From: an uncultured Alphaproteobacteria bacterium
GTDB lineage: Bacteria > Pseudomonadota > Alphaproteobacteria > HIMB59
Direction of reading: 5' to 3'
DNA length: 64,000 bases
NCBI GenBank assembly: GCA_902594145.1
Contig: CACJLA010000003.1
Location: 62,001 to 126,000 of the forward strand
Part shown: piece after piece, positions 5,419-7,177 of the stretch
How positions within the stretch are numbered: position 1 is the first letter of the stretch
Layout: every line of letters starts with the position of its first letter
The notes under the pieces: generated by a model
Seen by the model: the letters and a program-made list of their open reading frames with translations, nothing else
What the model was told of the DNA's origin: nothing
Databases searched by the model: none
Made by a program: the position numbers and the translations under genes

Positions 5419-6117
5419 TTATTTGACTTGGCGTGAAATTATATTTACTAAGTCTTTTCCAAAACTTTCAGCCTCTGATAAATAGTTGTCAATTTTTGAG
5501 GTTATTAAGTTGTAATAAGCAGTTGAAGGAATAGCCACAAATAGACCTAAAGCAGTTACAAATAATGCTTCTGCTATACCCGGTGCTACCACAGCGAGGT
5601 TAGTATTTTGAGCAATAGCTATTGCTTGAAAACTATTCATAATTCCCCAAACTGTTCCAAATAATCCAATGAACGGTGCAACTGATCCAGAAGAGGCCAA
5701 AAAGGATAGTCCCTTGTTAAGAATCGTATCTTCATTTGCAATACTTAAATCAAGAGATGTATAAAGTCTTTGAATAAAAGCAGAGTCAACTTTGTTTTTT
5801 TGTATTCGAGATTTTTCATACTCATTCATAATATTTCTAAAAATATTTGAGAAGCTCTCTTGATCGAATTCATCAATTTGTTGGTAAAGCTCGTCTAAAG
5901 AAACACCAGACCAAAAATGATTTTCAAATTTTTTAGATATTTTAATGAGTTTATTTATTAGTAAAATTTTTTGAATAATTATCTTCCAAGATTGAATTGA
6001 AAAAATCACTAACAATACAATTACAAATTTTACAACCCAGTCAGATTTTAGAAACATTCCCATCATAGAGAAATCTACAGATCCCTCAAGGGCAGTTAAG
6101 TTAATTATTTCTTCCAT
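5419..6117 (-). CDS. tolQ: MotA/TolQ/ExbB proton channel family protein TolQ
   Basis: ASSGSVAPFIGLFGTVWGIMNSF...IAEALFVTALGLFVAIPS motif. Confidence 0.95.
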   Translation of the reverse strand: MEEIINLTALEGSVDFSMMGMFLKSDWVVKFVIVLLVIFSIQSWKIIIQKILLINKLIKISKKFENHFWSGVSLDELYQQIDEFDQESFSNIFRNIMNEYEKSRIQKNKVDSAFIQRLYTSLDLSIANEDTILNKGLSFLASSGSVAPFIGLFGTVWGIMNSFQAIAIAQNTNLAVVAPGIAEALFVTALGLFVAIPSTAYYNLITSKIDNYLSEAESFGKDLVNIISRQVK

Positions 6118-6120
6118 AAA

Positions 6121-6456
6121 TTATTCTTCTTTAACTATTTTTTTTTTAAGTTCTTCAGAAACTTTATCAAAGTCTTCTGAATGTACCATTATCCAAAAAC
6201 CAGGTCTATTTTTTTCACATAATGCAATAACTGGAGTTTTTTTTTCCTTATCAGCAATAGATTTTGTATCGTCCCATAGTTTAATAGCTGTGTGCTTGGC
6301 TCTTAGCTTACACTCTATGAATAAACTATCATGAATTACGTCTGCATGAGTGACTTTTGAATTAATCCCACTAAGAGCGTTTCTCAAACCCCCAAAAAAC
6401 TTTGCAACAAGTCTCTCTCTATTTTTCCATGCTTTATCAGGCATTGGTAACCACAA
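6121..6456 (-). CDS. Small PD-(D/E)XK-like nuclease / putative Holliday junction resolvase-like protein
   Basis: D-x(n)-ExK signature (ADVIHDSLFIECKLRAKHTAIKLWDD) with later PVIALCEKNRPGFWIMV strand; 111 aa; sits between tolQ and yebC. Confidence 0.5.
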   Translation of the reverse strand: MWLPMPDKAWKNRERLVAKFFGGLRNALSGINSKVTHADVIHDSLFIECKLRAKHTAIKLWDDTKSIADKEKKTPVIALCEKNRPGFWIMVHSEDFDKVSEELKKKIVKEE

Positions 6457-7177
6457 TTAAACTAGAGTCAAAATCAAGATTTGAAAAGCAATTTTGGACA
6501 TCATCATTATCTTCTAATTCATCATTTAATTTGACCAATTTCATAAGTTCTTCCTCTTTTTCAATTTTTATAGTTAAATTTGGCTTCCATGTAATATTGG
6601 CACTTTCGATTTCGAATTTTTTCTTTCTTAATAATGTCTCAAATGAAGCCAACGCTTCATAAGAGCAATATAAATTTGTCCTGTTATCCTCTGTGTTGTA
6701 GTCGACCAATCCGTGATCAAGTAAATCTTCCAATAAGAAATCATCAATCTCTTCTTTAACTTGGACTTCTCCAACTCTTTTAAAATTAAAACTCACACTC
6801 CCAGTTTCTCCTAAATTTCCTCCATTTTTTGAAAAAATAGATCTAATTTCAGAAGCTGTCCTATTTTTGTTATCAGTTAAAGCCTCAACAATAAAAGCTG
6901 TTCCAAAAGGACCATACCCTTCGTATCTCACTTCTGAATAATCTGCAGAGTCATTATTATTTTTATTAATAGCTCTGTCTACATTGTCCTTGGGCATGTT
7001 AACACTTCGGGCATTAGTCATAGCTAATCTTAATCTTGGATTAGACTCTGGGTCTATTCCTCCTATTTTAACAGCAATTTGAATTTCTCTTCCTATTTTT
7101 GCGAATTGTTTTGCTCTTTTTTTATCCTGAGCACCTTTACGATATTGAATATTTTTAAATTTGGAATGACCTGCCAT
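6437..7177 (-). CDS. yebC: YebC/PmpR family transcription/translation factor
   Basis: MAGHSKFKNIQYRKGAQDKKRAK N-terminus; family-wide conservation. Confidence 0.95.
   Translation of the reverse strand: MAGHSKFKNIQYRKGAQDKKRAKQFAKIGREIQIAVKIGGIDPESNPRLRLAMTNARSVNMPKDNVDRAINKNNNDSADYSEVRYEGYGPFGTAFIVEALTDNKNRTASEIRSIFSKNGGNLGETGSVSFNFKRVGEVQVKEEIDDFLLEDLLDHGLVDYNTEDNRTNLYCSYEALASFETLLRKKKFEIESANITWKPNLTIKIEKEEELMKLVKLNDELEDNDDVQNCFSNLDFDSSLIVVTNA

Follow-up and report, generated by a model that had tools for sequence, protein, structure and literature searches.

The window analyzed here, a 64,000-nucleotide stretch of an alphaproteobacterial genome of the HIMB59 order, carries on its minus strand a small gene, hereafter X, lying between yebC (6437..7177, minus strand) and tolQ (5419..6117, minus strand). 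These two genes border the site, hereafter the slot, where other alphaproteobacteria carry ruvCAB. The open reading frame listed there spans 6121-6456 on the minus strand with a TTG start at 6456, and it had been described as a 111-aa protein running 20 nt into yebC. Since 105 of 106 homologous loci begin with an ATG equivalent to position 6444 (the remaining one with GTG), we corrected the length to 107 aa (6121..6444, minus strand; ATG at 6444, stop at 6121-6123) and, with the start moved, the overlap with yebC to 8 nt. Judged from these sequences, ATG 6444 is likely the true start and TTG 6456 an unlikely one; the protein would then begin MPDKAWKN (MPDKAWKNRERLVAKFFGG...). The 8-nt overlap is found in the genus of the window; in the sister family the two genes stand about 14 nt apart.

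As originally described, nothing but this reading frame separates yebC and tolQ, and the same arrangement recurs in the relatives: the order yebC-X-tolQ-tolR is kept in 105 of the 106 loci, the last one showing yebC-X only. Of 60 relatives, 53 have a homolog of X, and so does every one of the 17 with a completeness of 90% or more. Pairwise dN/dS was about 0.02-0.08, indicating strong purifying selection, though dS approaches or exceeds saturation where the pairs are more distant. With this spread among the relatives and these dN/dS values, X is a real, constrained protein and not a chance reading frame.

By sequence, X belongs with a family of phage proteins. The "Holliday junction resolvase" profile PHROG 2002 matches the X of the window with an E-value of 2.4e-8 over most of the protein (residues 7-106 of the 111-aa form, 3-102 of the 107-aa form), and it matched 24 of 24 family members scanned, the best at 1e-10; one member also matches PHROG 244 (7.8e-5). 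The suggested likeness to small phage-type resolvases was thereby borne out. Searches of Pfam, NCBIfam, PADLOC and PDB sequences with X gave nothing useful. In the Pfam scan there was no match of X to the RecU profile or to UPF0102, and the RNase H-like domain of RuvC (PF02075) was detected neither in X nor in the genome of the window. Because X likewise lacks a match to PF01870, the Pfam family of the archaeal resolvase Hjc, we name it Hjc-like in fold only and place it outside that family.

The residues expected of a PD-(D/E)XK nuclease are strictly conserved. The motif of X is D35-x8-E44-C-K46, preceded by an invariant upstream E10, and the core of the proposed active site, from D35 to K46 (DVIHDSLFIECK), is encoded at 6307..6342 on the minus strand; the invariant upstream columns E10 and R21 lie at 6415-6417 and 6382-6384 on the same strand. 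E10, R11, R21, D35, E44 and K46 are all invariant across the 24 members from the HIMB59-type order, the members of a second order described below and a Bacteroides phage protein. The original prediction had seen a D..ExK core in this region, and the motif with its invariant ExK (E44-C-K46) stands, whereas the catalytic aspartate is D35 (in HADVIH) and not the D39 of DSLFIECK, which varies within the family and is replaced by N, Q or E. The Hjc of P. furiosus requires Asp33, Glu46 and Lys48, with Glu9, Arg10 and Arg25 also important (PMC10140301). In a joint MAFFT alignment that included this protein (sequence identical to PDB 1gef), E10/R11 and E44/K46 of X share columns with E9/R10 and E46/K48 of Hjc; with R21 and D35 paired by eye with R25 and D33, across loops of unequal length, X has counterparts of all six residues.

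A single-sequence AlphaFold prediction of X was poor (pLDDT 60), and an AlphaFold2 model built on a 24-sequence alignment was used in its stead (pLDDT 80.4, pTM 0.75). In line with the fold originally proposed, the model shows a PD-(D/E)XK layout, an alpha-beta core with the motif on neighboring strands (H4-17, H23-26, E41-47, H53-66, E70-76, E83-86, H89-105). Compared by Foldseek with 350,542 PDB chains, the model matched archaeal Hjc resolvases first (1gef, 2wcw, 2wj0, 2wiw), at probabilities of 0.95-1.00 and TM of about 0.45-0.55, with E-values of only about 0.01. Matches in a viral fold library reached E-values of 1e-5, and some of these carry the annotation Holliday junction resolvase.

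The alphaproteobacterial order yebC-ruvC-ruvA-ruvB-ybgC-tolQ, given in the original prediction, was seen in our reference genomes: yebC-ruvC-ruvA-ruvB in both G060 and G067, continuing as ruvB-ybgC-tolQ in G060. Gene order confirmed that ruvCAB is missing from this position in the window, and our searches did not recover the genes elsewhere. RuvC (PF02075) was found in none of the 60 relatives, the 17 with a completeness of at least 90% included. RuvA_N and RuvB_C were likewise missing from every one of the 18 order members searched for them; 17 of these reach at least 90% completeness, among them G030, a closed, single-contig genome rated 99% complete. Control genomes scored 66-97 bits in the RuvA_N and RuvB_C searches. 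Weak RuvB_N matches of about 27 bits (a few up to 32) were set aside, as their scores and the lengths of the frames point to ClpX, Lon and DnaX rather than to a true RuvB. The genome of the window itself is 79.9% complete, and we rejected assembly gaps as the cause of the loss on the evidence of the near-complete genomes and the closed one. The genome searches for known junction enzymes covered RuvA, RuvB, RuvC and RecG, and the genomes may carry a second resolvase of another family (RusA, RecU or YqgF). RecG, on the other hand, was present in 17 of the 18 order members, the exception (G017) being an incomplete genome without a full match.

Across the class, X and RuvC exclude each other. In an even draw of 339 alphaproteobacterial genomes, RuvC was found in 319 and X in six, never together, and all six X genomes were without RuvC. 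The naive hypergeometric value for this exclusion is 2e-8, to be read with the fact that the six genomes represent two orders only and the independent support therefore comes from at most two lineages. A phylum-wide draw of 398 genomes contained X only in the window's own genome. In the second order, five of six genomes have X, all five between yebC and tolQ; RecG is present in this order, and RuvA, RuvB and RuvC are absent from G080, its sole member tested for the ruv genes. The YebC tree gave no decision on a single ancestral origin of X in the two orders.

The place next to yebC has also been filled by other proteins. In family f43, a 168-aa phage-type PD-(D/E)XK protein (PF24608 PDDEXK_15, PHROG 244) lies right after yebC and is followed by tilS (L117:2259-2762, plus strand; L121:978-1481, minus; L122:1745-2248, plus), and RuvA, RuvB and RuvC are absent from the family by the models used. 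In family f89, SAR11-like in its size and gene order, yebC is followed by the gene of a phage-type RuvC-like resolvase (PHROG 1770) not picked up by the RuvC model of Pfam (L126:1006-1497, minus; L128:2233-2724, plus; L125:1001-1414, minus). The copy in G324 matches PHROG 1770 with an E-value of 4.9e-37 and that in G146 was called shorter. The next genes in G146 are ybgC and tolQ; in G324 and G244, tolQ comes next. By the models used, f89 has neither RuvA nor RuvB. Resolvase-type proteins of different families hold the position of ruvC in three groups without RuvAB, and this is the strongest positional argument for X doing the same job. A profile comparison by HHalign of X with its f43 counterpart gave no significant match, and we therefore make no claim that the two PD-(D/E)XK proteins share an ancestor. 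In f97, a further RuvC-less family, yebC and ybgC are separated by about 2.1 kb without a long open frame (L143:4535-6660, L144:4141-6352), as a decayed ruvCAB might leave behind; its genomes gave no RecG match of full length.

We consider it very probable that X is a phage-type, Hjc-fold PD-(D/E)XK endonuclease that has replaced ruvCAB in its own slot, most likely as a Holliday junction resolvase with RecG as its probable partner. The original suggestion of a replacement Holliday-junction nuclease is thus supported in its essentials, the activity being a predicted one. Neither of the two outcomes named there as refuting it, an intact ruvABC at another place in the genome or a predicted structure without the PD-(D/E)XK catalytic arrangement, came about. 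By this reading, X would pair as a dimer, in the manner of Hjc, on the four-way Holliday junction arising from recombination or fork reversal. Each subunit would bear one metal site made up of E10, D35, E44 and K46, and the two would nick opposite strands of the junction. Branch migration in cells without RuvAB would probably be supplied by RecG or occur spontaneously.

The substrate of X does not follow from its fold and motif, and phage resolvases are described in PMC3864405 as tending towards promiscuity on branched DNA. X might thus be a PD-(D/E)XK nuclease with another role on such DNA (on flaps or three-way junctions, or in fork trimming), in cells whose RecG, which is indeed present, and topoisomerases clear Holliday junctions without a dedicated resolvase. 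The exact ruvCAB position, the strict exclusion from RuvC-bearing genomes and the presence of different resolvase-type proteins beside yebC in further families without RuvABC all speak against this, and we hold it to be unlikely. We give considerably less credence to the idea that X is a DNA-binding protein of Hjc-like fold that is not a nuclease or not a resolvase, comparable to UPF0102/YraN. A protein of UPF0102, a Hjc-like bacterial family, has the Hjc-like core residues and bound DNA without nuclease activity in one assay (PMC10140301), but X, besides lacking a UPF0102 match, differs in its residues: UPF0102 keeps the D/E/K core alone, whereas the X family additionally keeps E10, R11 and R21, the counterparts of Hjc E9, R10 and R25. 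That the absence of RuvABC is an artefact of divergent and incomplete genomes, such as that of the window, and X an unrelated neighbor is hardly credible and already largely refuted by the near-complete relatives without RuvC, the one-contig genome without RuvA_N and RuvB_C, the clear control scores and the weak RuvB_N matches with their ClpX-, Lon- and DnaX-like lengths.

RuvABC thus appears to be lost throughout an order of small-genome bacteria abundant in the ocean, which carry a tiny phage-type nuclease, most likely a cutter of Holliday junctions, at the same chromosomal place. RuvABC is nearly universal in the class, judging from RuvC, and its complete loss with X fixed in the slot suggests that a single gene of some 100 codons can be enough for free-living bacteria to finish recombination. 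For the HIMB59/AEGEAN-169-like order, in which a genomic island has been proposed to be exchanged by homologous recombination (PMC10734472), X is a named candidate resolvase; whether a cell needs RuvAB becomes directly testable by complementation. More broadly, we lean towards the view that the yebC-adjacent site is a recurrent exchange site, at which different phage-type resolvases (PHROG 2002 Hjc-like, PDDEXK_15 and phage RuvC-like) have independently replaced ruvCAB in place in several streamlined alphaproteobacterial lineages, so that some of the ocean's most abundant bacteria would resolve junctions by a single-gene pathway independent of RuvAB. A prior report of X replacing RuvABC was not found in the literature searched, which includes only a minority of subscription journals.

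Relatives of X among phages are few, with two gut phage records in INPHARED at 40-44% identity. The nearest phage proteins of the PHROG 2002 type that were found are those of Bacteroides phage BS162P1 (OP172706) and of MT835482, and the Bacteroides phage protein has E10, R11, R21, S25-G26, D35, E44, C45 and K46 in common with X. In BS162P1 (L150:3323-4315), the PHROG 2002-like domain lies at the C-terminal end of a longer protein that bears the annotation I-HmuI-type endonuclease; joining a homing-endonuclease-like part to a resolvase-like domain in this way is unusual. X, in contrast, is a stand-alone chromosomal gene, fixed across the order in the ruvCAB slot. It is chiefly for its PHROG family and its matches in fold that we call X phage-type; an origin of the gene from a phage is putative.

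Archaeal Hjc (PF01870; PDB 1gef, 2wcw) resembles X in giving the best PDB fold and in the six important residues, but X resides in bacteria, shows no significant sequence similarity to it in the Pfam and PDB searches, is shorter and has loops of different length between R21, D35 and E44. The PDDEXK_15 protein of f43 (PF24608/PHROG 244) is alike in being phage-type, of the PD-(D/E)XK kind and encoded immediately after yebC in a RuvABC-less family, and differs in its length of 168 aa and in having tilS instead of tolQ as its neighbor. In the Firmicutes, the job of RuvC is performed by RecU, itself a resolvase of the PD-(D/E)XK type. RecU operates together with RuvAB (RuvAB-RecU, PMC8583203). That a different resolvase can stand in for RuvC is therefore known in kind, with RuvAB kept, whereas the genomes with X that were tested are without RuvA and RuvB too; what is new is this further loss, the distinct phage-type family, its fixation in the original slot and the presence of other resolvase types in the same place in other streamlined lineages.
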